From Chloroflexota bacterium (GTDB lineage Bacteria > Chloroflexota > Anaerolineae > Anaerolineales > Villigracilaceae), in contig JACPVF010000013.1 of assembly GCA_016191845.1 (NCBI GenBank), positions 62,001 to 126,000 of the forward strand: a stretch of 64,000 nucleotides of DNA. The letters run 5' to 3'. The notes beneath the pieces are model-generated. The model was not told the origin of the DNA. It searched no databases and saw only the letters and a list, made by a program, of their open reading frames with translations. Made by a program: the position numbers and the translations under genes. Every line of letters begins with the position of its first letter. Position 1 is the first letter of the stretch. Positions 23,687-30,951 of the stretch are shown here, in pieces.

Positions 23687-24559
23687 CTATCCTCCCACCA
23701 GGCGGATGAGCGCTTCGGGGACCCAGAACTTGCCCAACCCGAAGAAAGCCAGCGAGAAGGAAAGCGCCACCATCACCACGCCCACCCAGATTAGGATGTA
23801 GTCACGGAGGTTGCGCTGTAGCACCTGCAGCCAGGTCCGCGGCCCCACACCGAAGGCGCGCAAATCCATCGCGTCGATGATGTCCTCGCTGCTGATGATC
23901 GCATGGATGGTGACGGGCACAAAGATCGGCCCCAGCTTACGAACCTGCTCGATCAGCCCACCCCTGATCTTCTCCAACTCGTAGCCACGCGCGCGCTGAG
24001 CGTCCATGGTCAGTTGGAAATCGCGGCCAAAGGTCGGGACGAAGCGCATGGTCAGGTCCATGGCATAGGCCAGTTTATCGGGCAGACCCAGCCCCTTGAA
24101 GGTGATCCCATACAGCGCGGGGTCGAGCGAGTAGGGAATCAGGATGGTCATGATGGCGATACTGACCACGCGCACAAACTGGCTGACGGCAAAGAAGGCA
24201 CGCTCCACGGTGATCTTGAGCGTGGGCGTCCAGCCGAAGAGGGAGAAGGGAGCCGTGAACTGGCGGATCAAATGCTCCTGCTTGTACACTTCCTCCCCGC
24301 CGCGCCCCGTCAGGAAGGTCAACAGGGCGAAGAAGGTAATGAAGCCAATGATGAACAAAAAGGCGCGACGCACCTCATGCCATTTGACCCCTGAGGTAAG
24401 CAGGACAAACAAGGCAATGATGAAGAATGGCGACAGAAATCTCACATCCCAGAAAGCTAGGGTGGAGAACATGAAGCACAAAAAGAAGATGATCCAGGCG
24501 CGTGGATCGAACGACTGGATGAAGGATTTGCGGGGACGGTATCGCCAGGCTACGAGCAT
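23687..24559 (-). CDS. ECF transporter transmembrane subunit EcfT
   Basis: A 290-residue membrane subunit that couples the ATPases to the substrate-binding S protein. Helices cluster at residues ~20-110 and near the C-terminus. Two coupling helices with A-R-G motifs are expected, and the main one is visible as DAQRARGYELEKIRGG, with a second basic segment at MDLRAFGVGPRTW. It is the last gene of the operon ATPase, S subunit, T subunit. An AAGGTG site precedes the start, directly after a strong hairpin. Confidence 0.85.
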   Translation of the reverse strand: MLVAWRYRPRKSFIQSFDPRAWIIFFLCFMFSTLAFWDVRFLSPFFIIALFVLLTSGVKWHEVRRAFLFIIGFITFFALLTFLTGRGGEEVYKQEHLIRQFTAPFSLFGWTPTLKITVERAFFAVSQFVRVVSIAIMTILIPYSLDPALYGITFKGLGLPDKLAYAMDLTMRFVPTFGRDFQLTMDAQRARGYELEKIRGGLIEQVRKLGPIFVPVTIHAIISSEDIIDAMDLRAFGVGPRTWLQVLQRNLRDYILIWVGVVMVALSFSLAFFGLGKFWVPEALIRLVGG

Positions 24560-24569
24560 GTTTCACCTT

Positions 24570-24599
24570 GCCCGTCGGGGACGTGTGTCCCCGACGGGC
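24570..24599 (-). repeat. Intercistronic hairpin between S-component and ecfT genes
   Basis: A perfect 13-bp stem (24570-24582 with 24587-24599) carries a four-base loop. On the coding strand the T-run precedes rather than follows it, so it is unlikely to be a terminator. It ends next to the ribosome-binding site of ecfT. Confidence 0.65.
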
Positions 24600-24616
24600 G
24601 AAAAAATCGAAAGGAA

Positions 24617-25558
24617 TTAGCGGCCAGACTGTCGGCGAACAGAGGCGTAAGCCAGCACGAGCAGCGGGACCAGGACGGCGGCAAAGATCATATTCGGGCC
24701 CGCCGCGGGCAGGAACTGTCCCACCATGGTGGCGGGCAACGAGAAGCCGTTGATCCAGATGTCGGCAATGGCGGCGAAACCGATACCTACAATATTGCCG
24801 AGCATGCCCCAGGTGACGGCGGCGGCCACATCTTCGTTGCTGCCGAAGAAGAAGCGCACCCCCAGCACCAGCAGGAAGCCGACCAGGATCGAAAGGCCCG
24901 CCAGCGGGGAGATCTGCGCGTCGCCGAAGATGTTGTTGGCCGCGTCATAGAACATCATGTTGGGCTGGTCGCGATTGAGGAAGAACAGCACCGCAGCCAG
25001 CGCGGTCAACACGCCGCCGACCCATAGGACAGTGTTCATGCTCTGCTTGCGATCCTTGAAGAGCATCCACAGACCCGAGACGAAGCCGATCAGGCCGTTG
25101 CCAATGCTCCATTGCGGGGAAAGGCCGAAGCCCGTCAGCGCATCGCCGAACATATTGCCGACCGCGCCGCTAAAGAAGCCTACCACGGGACCAAAGGCGT
25201 AGCCAAAGAACATGGGAATGGCGATGGCAGGACGCAGGGCCACCTGGCTCAGCGACGGCACGACGAAGACGGTACCGTTGAACAGCCACGAGAACACGGC
25301 ATACAGGGCCGCGCCGATGGCCATCCACACCACCTCGCGGGTACCCACTTCCCAGGCTTTGTTGTCACGCGTCAGGAAGTACGCCACGGCGGGGATCAGC
25401 ACGCCCAGGACCACAAAGAAGAAACGCAGGCCGACCGTGGCCTGGTCCACTTCGAAGTTGAAGACGCTGATCTTGGTGGACAGCACGAACATGACGACCG
25501 CAAAGATCGCCAGCACGGCGGCCAGGGAAAGGATAAAGTTCAAGAATTTCTTGTCCAT
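24617..25558 (-). CDS. ECF transporter substrate-binding (S) component
   Basis: A 313-residue polytopic protein with roughly eight or nine helices. The S-component character is supported by the stretch RPAIAIPMFFGYAFGPVVG followed by GAVGNMFGD, which matches the packed-helix region of ECF S proteins, and by its position between an ECF ATPase and EcfT. It is longer than the usual ~190-residue S protein, so either two modules or extra helices are present. The substrate (vitamin, nucleobase or metal) cannot be named; no riboswitch is seen upstream. Confidence 0.75.
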   Translation of the reverse strand: MDKKFLNFILSLAAVLAIFAVVMFVLSTKISVFNFEVDQATVGLRFFFVVLGVLIPAVAYFLTRDNKAWEVGTREVVWMAIGAALYAVFSWLFNGTVFVVPSLSQVALRPAIAIPMFFGYAFGPVVGFFSGAVGNMFGDALTGFGLSPQWSIGNGLIGFVSGLWMLFKDRKQSMNTVLWVGGVLTALAAVLFFLNRDQPNMMFYDAANNIFGDAQISPLAGLSILVGFLLVLGVRFFFGSNEDVAAAVTWGMLGNIVGIGFAAIADIWINGFSLPATMVGQFLPAAGPNMIFAAVLVPLLVLAYASVRRQSGR

Positions 25559-25574
25559 CTTACTCTCCTGTGAG

Positions 25575-27188
25575 TTAGATATGCGCCAGACCTTCGGCCC
25601 GCAGGAAACGCCCCGTTTCGGGGAAGCGCTTCACGTTCAACTCCAGCAAGGAGGTCGGGACGAGTCGGTTGGCATTGAGTCGGTCGAAATCGCGCAGCAC
25701 GTCCTGCGGGGCACCGTCGGCCACCAGCCGACCGTCGGCCACCATCAGGACACGATTGGCGTAGATCACAGCCAAATCCACGTCGTGGGTGATGAAGAGA
25801 ATAGCTTCGAACCCAGGCATTTGCAGGATGGCATCCATGAAATTCATGTAGTTCTGGTAATCCTGTCCCGCGGTGGGTTCGTCCATCACCAGGATGCGGG
25901 AACGCATCGCAAGGATGGCCGCGATACTGACGCGCTTTTGCTGACCAAAAGAAAGGGCCAGCGGGGGGTCCTGCTCTTTATCCGAAAGGTTGACGGTCCG
26001 TAAGGCTTCCTTCACCTCCTTCGCGATCTGGTCTTTAGGATGCTTGAGATTGGTGGGCCCGAAGGCCAACTCATCGTGGACAGTGGGAGCGAACAGCATG
26101 TGACTTGGACTCTGGAAAACGTATCCCAGGGTACCTGCGATCTGCGCCACGCTGGCTTCGCGGGTGTCGCGCCCGTCCACCAGGACACGTCCCGACTTGG
26201 GCTTGAGCAGGCCGATGGCGTGCTTGACAAAGGTGGTCTTGCCTGCGCCGTTCGCGCCCAACACGGCGATTACGTCGCCGCGCTTGATCTCGAGGTTGAT
26301 GCCGTGCAACACCTCGCGGTCCACATCGTATCCAAAGGCGACATTCTCGAACTTTACGAGAGTCTCCTGCTTGCCATCCGCTACGGACGGCAGAATCTTC
26401 ATCTCGGCTGGAGCAGGCGCAAATTTCGCAAACTCCATGATACGTTCGGCAGGAAGTTTGACTTCCTTATAGTTCACCTGTTTATACAACCCCTCTACGT
26501 CGCCCAAGTAACGGATTCGGCCTTCGGACAGGAACAACACGCGGTCGGGGCGGATGCGCAACACGTCTTCCACGCGGTGCTCCACCATCAGCACGGTCAT
26601 GCCCTGGTCGGCCAGCAGGCGGACAGTGTCCAGGGTGTCCTGCGCGGAGGCAGGATCAAGGCTGGCGAGGGGTTCATCCAACAGGAGAATCGAAGGGCGC
26701 ATGGCAAGCACGCCTGCCAGAGCCACTTTCTGTTTTTCGCCGCCCGAGAGATTGAAGGTCTCACGGTCACGCAAATGGGAAATCTTGAGGAAGGCCAGCG
26801 CCTCATCCACGCGCTGGAAGATTTCCTCGCGGGAGAGGCCCAGGTTCTCGAGGCCGAAAGCTACTTCGCTCAAAACCTTGGTGCCAAGGATTTGACGTTC
26901 AGGGTCTTGCAACACCGTGCCGATCTTCTGGGAGACGCGGGCCAGGGTCCAACCCTTGGTCTCTTCGCCGAAGACCAGAATACGTCCCTGCTCCTCACCC
27001 TTGTACGAGCGGGGAATCAGGCCATTGATGCAACGGATGAGCGTGGTCTTGCCACATCCGCTTGCGCCCGCAATAAGCAGGATCTCACCGCGCCTGGCGG
27101 TGAAGGAAATATCGTGAATGGCCGCGCCCTCACGGTCACGGTAACGAAAGGAAAGGTTTTCGACAACAAGGGGAAAATCAGTCGGCAT
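25575..27188 (-). CDS. ECF transporter ATPase with two fused ABC domains
   Basis: A 537-residue protein with two complete ATPase domains in tandem, equivalent to EcfA1 plus EcfA2. The first has Walker A GASGCGKTT, signature LSGGEKQKVALAG and Walker B LLLDEPLASLD. The second has Walker A GANGAGKTT, a modified signature LSFGQQKRVSIAA and Walker B LVMDEPTAGQD. The ATG at 27188 is chosen because it lies inside the end of a short upstream ORF and could be reached by re-initiation; a GTG at 27215 would add nine residues. Neither has a good ribosome-binding site. Confidence 0.88.
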   Translation of the reverse strand: MPTDFPLVVENLSFRYRDREGAAIHDISFTARRGEILLIAGASGCGKTTLIRCINGLIPRSYKGEEQGRILVFGEETKGWTLARVSQKIGTVLQDPERQILGTKVLSEVAFGLENLGLSREEIFQRVDEALAFLKISHLRDRETFNLSGGEKQKVALAGVLAMRPSILLLDEPLASLDPASAQDTLDTVRLLADQGMTVLMVEHRVEDVLRIRPDRVLFLSEGRIRYLGDVEGLYKQVNYKEVKLPAERIMEFAKFAPAPAEMKILPSVADGKQETLVKFENVAFGYDVDREVLHGINLEIKRGDVIAVLGANGAGKTTFVKHAIGLLKPKSGRVLVDGRDTREASVAQIAGTLGYVFQSPSHMLFAPTVHDELAFGPTNLKHPKDQIAKEVKEALRTVNLSDKEQDPPLALSFGQQKRVSIAAILAMRSRILVMDEPTAGQDYQNYMNFMDAILQMPGFEAILFITHDVDLAVIYANRVLMVADGRLVADGAPQDVLRDFDRLNANRLVPTSLLELNVKRFPETGRFLRAEGLAHI

Positions 27189-27279
27189 AAAAAGTCGCTT
27201 CGATGGGATTTGCACTCAGAACACCCAAAGCCGTCAAATGGCTCGTCACTTTCACGGCGGGTTCGAGAAATAGTTGCAT
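27178..27279 (-). CDS. Short leaderless ORF (33 residues) overlapping the ecfA start
   Basis: The ATG at 27279 lies six bases after GATAAT of a strong promoter, so it would be translated from a leaderless mRNA. The frame runs 33 codons and ends in TGA at 27178-27180, just past the ecfA ATG at 27188. This arrangement would deliver terminating ribosomes to the ecfA start, which lacks its own ribosome-binding site. The peptide begins MQLFLEPAVKV and ends ATFYAD; no family is recognised. It may be a regulatory or coupling ORF rather than a functional protein. Confidence 0.45.
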   Translation of the reverse strand: MQLFLEPAVKVTSHLTALGVLSANPIEATFYAD

Positions 27280-27385: not shown

Positions 27386-27931
27386 TTATTTCAAATGTTC
27401 GGCAAAGGCGCTTTCCAGATCCTCTTGCGAGGTAAAACCGATCCATTTTTTCAAGACATTCCCATCCGCGTCCAGCAGGTACAGCTCAGGCTGATAGCGG
27501 AAACCAAGCGCACTCTGGAAAACGTCGGTGCGAGGATCGTCGGCATCGAGATATGAGAATTTGATCTGCCCAAAATATTTTGCCTCGAGCCCATGAACCA
27601 TGGGCGCCATTGCGCGGCAGGTCGTTCAGGTGAAGCGGAAGAACTCGACCAGTTGCAGTCCGCCCGAAGCCAAATTGACGGTGGTGGGGTCCGTCGCCTC
27701 GAGGTTGGGACCACGCGACGTGGCGACTGCCACGGGTGTGGGCGACGCCACTTCCACCTGGACCGTAGGTTGGGTCGCCGTTTCGACGGTCGAGGTGGCG
27801 ACTGGAAGGCTGGGCGCGGTCTCCGTCGGCGCGGGGGAAGCGGGAGCGGAAGGGGCGCAGGCTGCAAGCGTCAAAACGGCGGCCAGGCTGAGGGTCAAGG
27901 ACAGACGGGCAAGGGCTCGGGAACGGGTCAT
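27386..27931 (-). CDS. Candidate selenoprotein: thioredoxin-like lipoprotein with UxxC motif
   Basis: Read through one in-frame TGA (27626-27628) this is a 181-residue exported thioredoxin. Residues 1-25 are a lipoprotein signal ending LTLAAC (acylated Cys25), followed by a Ser/Thr/Pro/Val-rich linker to ~80 and a thioredoxin fold. The TGA is codon 102, at the first Cys of the expected redox pair: LVEFFRFT-U-TTC-RAMAPMVHGLE, so the motif reads UxxC with Cys105 intact. A hairpin with a perfect 7-bp stem and GTT loop (27605-27589) begins 20 bases after the TGA, at the right distance for a bacterial SECIS. The alternative is a point-nonsense pseudogene. AAGGAG precedes the start. Confidence 0.72.
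27589..27605 (-). promoter_or_regulatory. SECIS-like hairpin downstream of the in-frame UGA
   Basis: GCCCATG pairs with CATGGGC around a GTT loop. The loop starts 28 bases after the UGA, inside the 16-37 base window known for bacterial SECIS elements, and G is its first base as in the SelB-binding consensus. Confidence 0.6.
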
Positions 27932-28005
27932 GTCGTCTCCTTTTTATAATTGGTCATCTGATGGGATTATCAACAAAATCCTTACACAAACAAGCCGCGA
28001 GTGTA

Positions 28006-28063: not shown

Positions 28064-29488
28064 ATGGAGTATAAACTGTTGATCGACGGCCAGTGGGTGG
28101 ATGCAGGTCCTGCACTTGAGGTGAAGAACAAGTACAACGGAGAGGTGGTTGGCGTGCTGCCCACCGCCCGTAAAGAGGATCTGGATGCTGCCATCGACGC
28201 TGCGGAGCGGGCAGAAGATGTGATGGCAGACATGCCCGCGCACAAACGCGCAGAGATCCTGCTCAAGACCGCAACGCTGCTGCGCGAACGCACCGAAGAC
28301 CTGGCCAAGACCATCGCGGCCGAGGCAGGCAAGGCGCTCAAGTTCGCCCGCGCCGAAGTGGACCGCGCCGCCAGTACCTTCACTATCGCAGGCGAGGAGG
28401 CCAAGCGCCTGCACGGTGAGACCATCCCGCTGGATGCGGTGCCCTCGGGCGAAGGCTATTTCGGCTTCTGGACCCGCCGTCCCGTGGGCGTGATCGCGGC
28501 CGTCAGCCCATTCAATTTCCCGCTCAATCTGGTTGCGCATAAAGTGGCGCCCGCACTGGCCTCGGGTAATACGCTGGTGCTCAAGCCCGCCACCACCACC
28601 CCGCTGGCAGCGGTCAAGCTGTGCCAGATCTTGCAGGAGGCAGGGCTGCCCGCTGGCGCGATCAACCTGGTGGTTGGTTCGGGCGGCACGGTCGGCGAGT
28701 GGCTGATCACCGACCCGCGTGTGGATAAGATCACCTTCACAGGCTCGCCCGAGATCGGCCGTCACATCCTGGCCGTGGCAGGCATCAAGAAGGTCACACT
28801 CGAACTGGGCAATACCTCGCCCGTGGTTGTCGCCCCCGACGCCGACCTGGACTTCGTGGCCAAACGCTGCGCGCTGGGCGCGTTTTATAACTCGGGCCAG
28901 GTGTGCATCTCGGTCCAGCGCATCTACAGCCAGAAACAGGTCTTCGAGCCGTTCGCGGAAAAGTTCGTCAAGGCGACCGACGCGCTGGTGGTGGGTGACC
29001 CGCTCGACGAGCGCGTGGACGTCGGCCCGATGATCGACTCGAAGGAAGTCGACCGTATCGAAGGCTGGGTCAACGAGGCGCAGGGCGCGGGCGCACACGT
29101 GTTAACAGGCGGCAAGCGCGATGGCACCGTCTATTACCCGACCATCCTGACGGGCGTGGAAGCGGACATGAAGGTAGTGGCCGAGGAGGCCTTCGCGCCC
29201 GTGGCGTCTGTGATTTCGAGCGATGACTTCGAGTCCGCACTGAAACAGGCCAACGATACCAAGTTTGGCTTGCAGGTCGGCGTCTTTACCAAGGACGTGG
29301 ACCGCGTGTTCAAGGCCGTCAAGCGCCTGAACTTCGGCGGCGTGATCGTCAACGATACGCCCAACTTCCGTGCCGACCACATGCCCTACGGAGGCAACCG
29401 TCAGAGCGGCCTGGGACGAGAGGGCGTCAAGTTCGCCATGGAAGATATGACCAACATTCAATTGGTCGCCATCCGATTGAATTCATAA
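28064..29488 (+). CDS. NAD(P)-dependent aldehyde dehydrogenase
   Basis: A 474-residue aldehyde dehydrogenase that would oxidise an aldehyde to its acid. The catalytic Glu lies in LELGNTSPVVV and the nucleophilic Cys in NSGQVCISVQRIY, with the oxyanion Asn in SPFNFPLN. The C-terminus has the oligomerisation strand PYGGNRQSGLGREG. It resembles the lactaldehyde/glyceraldehyde-type branch; the substrate cannot be fixed. A second paralogue starts 23 bases later, so the two are in one operon. Confidence 0.9.
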   Translation: MEYKLLIDGQWVDAGPALEVKNKYNGEVVGVLPTARKEDLDAAIDAAERAEDVMADMPAHKRAEILLKTATLLRERTEDLAKTIAAEAGKALKFARAEVDRAASTFTIAGEEAKRLHGETIPLDAVPSGEGYFGFWTRRPVGVIAAVSPFNFPLNLVAHKVAPALASGNTLVLKPATTTPLAAVKLCQILQEAGLPAGAINLVVGSGGTVGEWLITDPRVDKITFTGSPEIGRHILAVAGIKKVTLELGNTSPVVVAPDADLDFVAKRCALGAFYNSGQVCISVQRIYSQKQVFEPFAEKFVKATDALVVGDPLDERVDVGPMIDSKEVDRIEGWVNEAQGAGAHVLTGGKRDGTVYYPTILTGVEADMKVVAEEAFAPVASVISSDDFESALKQANDTKFGLQVGVFTKDVDRVFKAVKRLNFGGVIVNDTPNFRADHMPYGGNRQSGLGREGVKFAMEDMTNIQLVAIRLNS

Positions 29489-29511
29489 CCAAACCAAAGG
29501 AGAGACGTATC

Positions 29512-30951
29512 ATGGAGTACAAGCTTTGGATCGACGGCAAATGGGTGGATAGCCAGGGAGGTGGCACAATTGTCGTTGAAAATCCGTCTACTGGGCGGAA
29601 GATCGCGGAGGTGTTGGACGCCAGCCGCGCAGACGTGGATCGCGCCGTGCAGGCGGCAAAAACTGCCTTTTATGATGGGCGCTGGTCAAAAAAATCCCCT
29701 GGTGAGCGCTCGAAGATCATATGGAAATTGGCAGATCTGATCGAAGCCCACGCAGAAGAACTAGCCAGGATCGAGTCGGAGAACACAGGCAAGCCGTATC
29801 AATTCGTCAGCTTGGGTGGCGACCTGCCTTTCGCAGTAGACAACCTGCGCTTTTTTGCAGGCGCTACGCGCGACACCAGCGGCTCGCATGCGGGCGAGTT
29901 CATGCCCGGCTACACTTCCATGTACCGCCATGAGCCGGTTGGCGTGGTCGGCCAGATTGCACCCTGGAATTATCCGCTGATGATGGCAGCCTGGAAGATC
30001 GGCCCAGCCCTGGCGGCGGGTTGCACCGTCGTCTTGAAGCCCGCCCCTGGCACGCCACTCACCGCCCTGATGTTGGCCGAACTGACCAAAGAAGCGGGCA
30101 TTCCTGATGGTGTGGTCAATATCATCTCAGGCGGCAATGACTCTGGTCAGGCATTGGTCGAGCACCCCGATGTCCGCATGATCAGCCTGACGGGCTCAAC
30201 AGGCACAGGCAAGAAGATCATGAAGACTGCCGCGGATACACTCAAGAGGGTCCACTTGGAATTAGGCGGCAAGGCCCCCTTCATCGTCTTCCAGGATTCG
30301 GACCCTGAGTTGGTTGCCGCCAAAGCGTCTCTGGCCGCCACAATGAACACAGGCCAGGACTGCACCGCCGCCACGCGCATCTACGTGGAAAAGAGCAAGG
30401 CAAAAATTATCCAGGAAGCAGTCGTCGAGGCGATGCGCAATGTCAAGGTTGGACTGCCGTTTGATGAAGGTATACAGATGGGACCGCTCATCTCTGGAAT
30501 CCAGCGCGAACGTGTGGGCGGCTTCGTGGAGCGCGCAAAGGCGCAGGGTGCGAAAATCCTCACGGGCGGCGGTGTTCCCACTGGTCTCGATGCAGGCTAC
30601 TACTTCGAGCCGACCGTCCTCACAGACGTGCAACAAAACTGGGAGATTGTCCAGAATGAGGTCTTCGGTCCCGTGGTCACGGTGCAGGAATTCGAAAATG
30701 AAACAGAAGCTCTGCACCTGGCCAATGACATCCAGTATGGTCTGGCCGCTTCTATCTTCACCAAGGACGTGAGCCGCGCCATGCGTCTGTCTTCGACTCT
30801 GGAGTTTGGCACGGTGTGGATCAATGATCATCTACCGTTGACTTCCGAAACGCCACATGGCGGTTTCAAGCAGTCAGGGTTCGGAAAGGATCTCTCTGCC
30901 GAGGCCATTGGTGACTACCAGGTAACCAAACACGTGATGATCGCTCAATAA
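29512..30951 (+). CDS. Aldehyde dehydrogenase, betaine/aminobutyraldehyde-like
   Basis: A 479-residue aldehyde dehydrogenase. Conserved sites: oxyanion Asn in APWNYPLM, glycine-rich NAD loop SLTGSTGTGKKI, catalytic Glu in LELGGKAPFIV, catalytic Cys in NTGQDCTAATRIYV. The ending HGGFKQSGFGKDLS is that of betaine-aldehyde, gamma-aminobutyraldehyde and related dehydrogenases. Together with the PuuB-like flavoproteins elsewhere in the window it fits polyamine or amine catabolism; this is inference. AAAGGAGAG precedes the start. Confidence 0.9.
   Translation: MEYKLWIDGKWVDSQGGGTIVVENPSTGRKIAEVLDASRADVDRAVQAAKTAFYDGRWSKKSPGERSKIIWKLADLIEAHAEELARIESENTGKPYQFVSLGGDLPFAVDNLRFFAGATRDTSGSHAGEFMPGYTSMYRHEPVGVVGQIAPWNYPLMMAAWKIGPALAAGCTVVLKPAPGTPLTALMLAELTKEAGIPDGVVNIISGGNDSGQALVEHPDVRMISLTGSTGTGKKIMKTAADTLKRVHLELGGKAPFIVFQDSDPELVAAKASLAATMNTGQDCTAATRIYVEKSKAKIIQEAVVEAMRNVKVGLPFDEGIQMGPLISGIQRERVGGFVERAKAQGAKILTGGGVPTGLDAGYYFEPTVLTDVQQNWEIVQNEVFGPVVTVQEFENETEALHLANDIQYGLAASIFTKDVSRAMRLSSTLEFGTVWINDHLPLTSETPHGGFKQSGFGKDLSAEAIGDYQVTKHVMIAQ

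Follow-up and report, generated by a model that had tools for sequence, protein, structure and literature searches.

Thioredoxins with selenocysteine (Sec) at the first position of the CxxC redox motif, the UxxC thioredoxins (Trx, PF00085), are an experimentally verified selenoprotein family (PMC13188914). In earlier surveys thioredoxins with cysteine were widespread and those with Sec were few (PMC1088965; PMC1794560). SaoT (NF040730), the proteins with a HUIPC motif (NF047660) and the Trx7/PDZ proteins (NF041199) are likewise bacterial thioredoxin-like selenoproteins. Two Sec residues in one motif, UxxU, are known from a peroxiredoxin-like (Prx-like) thiol:disulfide oxidoreductase (PMC13188914) and from Prx-like 2 (PMC2398784); a 2026 review gives UxxU for Prx-like and other families, not for thioredoxin (PMC13188914). 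Finally, DsbE/CcmG, TlpA, ResA and StoA are membrane-anchored extracytoplasmic redox proteins with a thioredoxin fold.

The gene described here lies in a 64,000-nucleotide stretch of an Anaerolineales genome (Chloroflexota), hereafter the window. With a probability of about 96%, we consider it to encode a selenoprotein, a lipid-anchored extracytoplasmic UxxC thioredoxin whose Sec insertion, lipidation and export are predicted from sequence. It is read on the minus strand, which the earlier note had left unstated, from an ATG at 27931 to a TAA at 27388-27386 (Table 1). Like the known UxxC thioredoxins, it combines the same Pfam domain with predicted Sec at the first motif position and a bacterial SECIS just downstream. 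Compared by family description with the known proteins (reference WP_010956703), the window lineage differs in its long linker and its predicted lipoprotein nature. Its members score about 35 bits (33.6-35.2) against the NCBIfam TrxA equivalog TIGR01068, far below the cut-off of 96.8, and Sec is the usual form in this lineage but rare among the known thioredoxins. Since UxxC thioredoxin is already a known selenoprotein family, this is a new lineage of a known kind.

Table 1. Features of the predicted selenocysteine thioredoxin lipoprotein gene in the window, and loci of UxxU relatives in other genomes
Feature	Position	Strand	Basis
Full coding sequence, UGA102 read as Sec, 181 residues	27386..27931	-	sequence, translation
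Ribosome-binding site AAGGAG, upstream of ATG	27937..27942	-	sequence inspection
Signal peptide and lipobox LAAC; C25 (27859-27857) the predicted lipidated residue	27857..27931	-	translation inspection
Ala/Pro/Thr/Ser-rich linker from lipid anchor to domain (approximate bounds)	27662..27856	-	translation
Thioredoxin domain, residues 91-175, Pfam PF00085	27407..27661	-	profile match, predicted model
In-frame UGA, predicted Sec102, position 1 of UxxC redox motif	27626..27628	-	translation, homologue codons
Cys105 (TGC), second position of UxxC motif	27617..27619	-	translation, alignment
Predicted SECIS hairpin GCCCAUG-GUU-CAUGGGC, stem starting 20 nt past UGA	27589..27605	-	sequence, comparison
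UxxU locus, genome G630 (strand of L208)	L208:711/L216	+	
UxxU locus, genome G524 (strand of L212)	L212/L224	-	
UxxU locus, genome G696	L226	-	
UxxU locus, genome G808	L227:1582	+	
UxxU locus, genome G757	L230	-	

The active-site motif is UTTC (U102, C105). As the earlier note had it, the in-frame TGA stands at the first Cys of the CxxC motif and the second Cys is present. Its claim that the frame runs on to its own terminator also held, over 79 codons rather than the 75 it counted. By inspection, the N-terminus has the hydrophobic signal and lipobox cysteine of a lipoprotein (LTLAAC, residues 20-25). The match to PF00085 is 35.6 bits, above the gathering cut-off of 23.5, and the homologue alignment contains, besides the UxxC motif, an invariant QP at the cis-Pro position. 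The AlphaFold2 model of the domain (pLDDT 95.3, pTM 0.88) has a thioredoxin fold, and thioredoxins are the PDB structures that it resembles most (Z 16.4, rmsd 1.7 over 100 residues). Weak profile matches connect the protein with the DsbE, TlpA, ResA and StoA group; its DsbE match is far below the curated cut-off, and its active site differs in carrying a predicted Sec. No NCBIfam model was matched at or above its cut-off by the window protein, no known RNA element was found in an Rfam search of the locus, and the NF040730, NF047660 and NF041199 models matched none of 30 lineage members at E 0.001.

The neighbouring genes were classified by inspection. On the same strand, at 23687-27215 (-), is an operon that probably encodes an ECF-type transporter, with a double ATPase, an S-like membrane protein and a CbiQ-like protein. 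Divergently placed at 28064-30951 (+) are two aldehyde dehydrogenase-like genes. Of 81 loci, 49 have a divergent aldehyde dehydrogenase-like gene nearby and 18 the ECF-type ATPase. No recurrent redox partner was found among the top neighbour clusters of these loci, whose sequences were read by eye, and context was therefore left out of the assignment of function.

The genome to which the window belongs (4.63 Mb, 99% complete) contains selA, selB, selC and selD, the four genes that the earlier note proposed to look for. The tRNA-Sec gene selC scores 70.4 bits against Rfam RF01852 (cut-off 47) and is called by ARAGORN as tRNA-SeC with anticodon tca. SelA scores 532 bits, selD 348 bits, and selB, which is on the same contig as the window, 326 bits over its cut-off. 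The selD gene (C11:231350-232282; L018:1405-2466 (-)) has an in-frame UGA of its own in the motif CAGUASK, which agrees with UxxK, the published SelD motif (PMC13188914); the genome thus has at least two selenoprotein genes.

The UGA is conserved. A search of 152 genomes from the same family gave a strong orthologue (E below 1e-26) in 96, that of G010 being split by an assembly gap, and all 96 orthologues have an in-frame TGA. Where family loci were read at codon level, the UGA is at exactly this codon in all 55. In an order-wide reading of 97 sequences, the first-Cys position is TGA in 76, TGT or TGC in 17 and another residue in four, with no gaps in the alignment around the site. Other families have UGA here or, in certain lineages, a Cys codon (UGC or UGU), so the alignment of homologues proposed in the earlier note places Cys or UGA at exactly this codon. 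At class level (396 genomes), many families have the TGA form. Those relatives that bear names are MAGs of Chloroflexota, and most carry the label Anaerolineales, Anaerolineae or Chloroflexi.

Other thioredoxin-like genes occur in these genomes. At L078:499-555 (+) and L087:2094-2150 (-), a copy adjoins one with UGA and has Ala/Ser or Ser/Ser at the redox Cys positions; these copies are therefore probably redox-inactive. More distant genes (E 1e-12 to 1e-7; e.g. G089:C161 and G091:C98) have one in-frame TGA, which suggests a group of further selenoprotein paralogues.

The published model of the bacterial SECIS has a stem of 4-16 bp, an apical loop of 3-9 nt that has a G within its first two positions and lies 16-37 nt from the UGA, and a minimum free energy no higher than -7.5 kcal/mol (PMC13188914). 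The hairpin in the window agrees with this model throughout, with seven perfect pairs, a loop that starts 27 nt after the UGA and an energy of -9.9 kcal/mol, and the stem, GTT loop and spacing described in the earlier note were found as it gave them. The same note argued that a TGA beside such a hairpin was unlikely by chance. For the hairpin by itself this does not hold, as the 54-nt stretch of the window folds no better than its shuffles (z -0.65); what stands behind the argument is that the UGA is conserved and the hairpin covaries. Only comparison raises the hairpin above chance: UGA homologues preserve it through compensatory changes, and in Cys homologues it has decayed.

In 50 distinct UGA sequences, 98% of the cells of the six-pair stem are paired. 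Four of the six pairs have compensatory changes, including A-U to G-C (13 sequences) and C-G to U-A (four sequences). The covariation score was reached by none of 500 shuffles, sliding the partner abolishes the pairing, and an independent consensus fold recovers the same stem. In contrast, the pairing in 17 Cys homologues is 51%, the level of shuffles, with covariation no higher than in shuffles. The median hairpin energy is -9.9 kcal/mol in UGA forms and -1.8 kcal/mol in Cys forms (Mann-Whitney p 4e-11), and in the 17-mer test the hairpin falls short of -7.5 kcal/mol in 11 of 76 UGA sequences. The loop centre keeps G-U in the UGA forms (GGUUC or CGUGC). Nearly all UGA forms have the peptide P[MIV]VHGLE across the hairpin, and many Cys forms vary there (VLRNLE, VLKKLE, VMNYLE), a pattern to be expected of a protein under constraint from its RNA. 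That the covariation is a mere by-product of a conserved peptide was also considered; the loss of pairing and the freer peptide in the Cys homologues argue against it.

Is the UGA a lesion in an ordinary CxxC thioredoxin, by nonsense mutation of TGC to TGA or by an error of sequencing? TGA is one base from TGC and TGT, and without comparison the gene reads as a truncated ORF of 101 amino acids. However, 75 other sequences, drawn from a wide range of genomes, families and assemblies, have the same TGA at the same codon and an unbroken frame behind it, which already refutes a lesion, and the hairpin covaries. That the TGA is also seen in other species and families, in genomes independent of this one, contradicts a sequencing slip to which the earlier note had given thought, and we find a broken gene or misread base scarcely credible. 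Or, is the codon read as Cys or Trp without selenium, through ordinary reassignment or leaky read-through? The open frame past the UGA and the Cys of homologues at this position would fit, but UGA still ends ordinary ORFs in the window (4 of the 34 that begin with ATG and have at least 300 amino acids), the genome has the full Sec system, and conservation of the hairpin is confined to sequences with UGA at this codon. Decoding without selenium is thus very improbable.

A further possibility is that termination at the UGA is regulated, with a truncated lipoprotein of 101 residues as the main product and Sec insertion rare or dependent on selenium. Recoding of UGA generally competes with termination, and the first 101 residues hold a complete lipoprotein leader and linker. 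Against this, the thioredoxin domain past the UGA is strongly conserved, and it follows that selection maintains the full-length product; we regard a mainly truncated product as unlikely. The internal UGA, conserved across a group of Chloroflexota, is almost certainly read as Sec and does not mark a broken gene. The insertion of Sec at residue 102, proposed in the earlier note, is supported by the Sec machinery, the conserved UGA, the covariation of the SECIS and the co-occurrence with selA, and each of the three outcomes that the note had named against it failed to appear.

This co-occurrence was seen both within and outside the family. In the family itself, 141 of 152 genomes have selA. Among the 55 genomes compared outside it, 28 of the 30 that have the UGA form also have selA, against 9 of the 25 that have the Cys form (Fisher p 7e-6, indicative only, since the test ignores the relatedness of the genomes). 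The UGA gene also occurs in some genomes in which no selA was detected, for example G143 (95% complete, 700 contigs), G082 and G115, and this absence is attributed to incomplete assemblies. In one genus with Cys forms (g34, family f9), selA was not detected in any of the genomes examined, two of them single-contig assemblies. Other Cys forms occur in genomes that have selA, so a Cys form is possible without loss of the Sec system. Seven Cys forms of family f9 (L105-L110, L112) still encode VHGLE at the hairpin site, possibly as a remnant of a Sec ancestor.

Related thioredoxin-like lipoproteins in five genomes have two in-frame UGAs, giving an apparent UxxU motif, followed by one SECIS-like hairpin of the same kind. 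All five genomes have selA. These genes match the profile of the window family, with lower scores than the window gene. They resemble the known UxxU proteins in having two predicted Sec in the redox motif; those belong to peroxiredoxin-like or other families, whereas these are thioredoxin-like lipoproteins.

In a quick tree (101 columns, midpoint root, many forks unresolved) the Cys clades are nested among UGA forms. The nesting suggests changes from Sec to Cys, the direction not being proven by so weakly resolved a tree. Four of the five UxxU sequences group together, and the fifth (L208) is apart, beside a UxxC sequence from the same genus. A tentative history, to which we give slightly less than even odds, is that these Anaerolineae lipoproteins are a Sec-first thioredoxin lineage. 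In this history Sec would be ancestral, the Cys forms would have lost it secondarily, at times together with selA, and a part of the lineage would have moved on to UxxU, with one hairpin for both UGAs.

How might the protein be made and act? SelB with Sec-tRNA(Sec) would bind the hairpin just downstream of UGA102, and the ribosome would decode this codon as selenocysteine rather than stop. The product would be exported and anchored through lipidated C25. From its sequence we infer a membrane-anchored, outward-facing thiol oxidoreductase, in which Sec102 would be the attacking nucleophile and Cys105 would resolve the intermediate to a selenenylsulfide. The latter would have to be reduced by a membrane reductant, the presumed direction of electron flow.

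The lineage is apparently undescribed and unannotated. A limited literature search, which is weak evidence of novelty, found no paper on a UxxC thioredoxin of Anaerolineales or Chloroflexota. As standard gene calling stops at residue 101, the annotation of many Chloroflexota genomes is likely to lack a conserved redox protein or to mark it as broken. The prevalence of Sec across a class reverses the usual thioredoxin pattern of rare Sec among common Cys. Having Sec, Cys and apparently Sec-Sec at the active site of one domain, these close relatives form a natural series for studying the benefit of selenium in a thiol oxidoreductase, and the same series is suited to asking how one hairpin could recode two UGAs.
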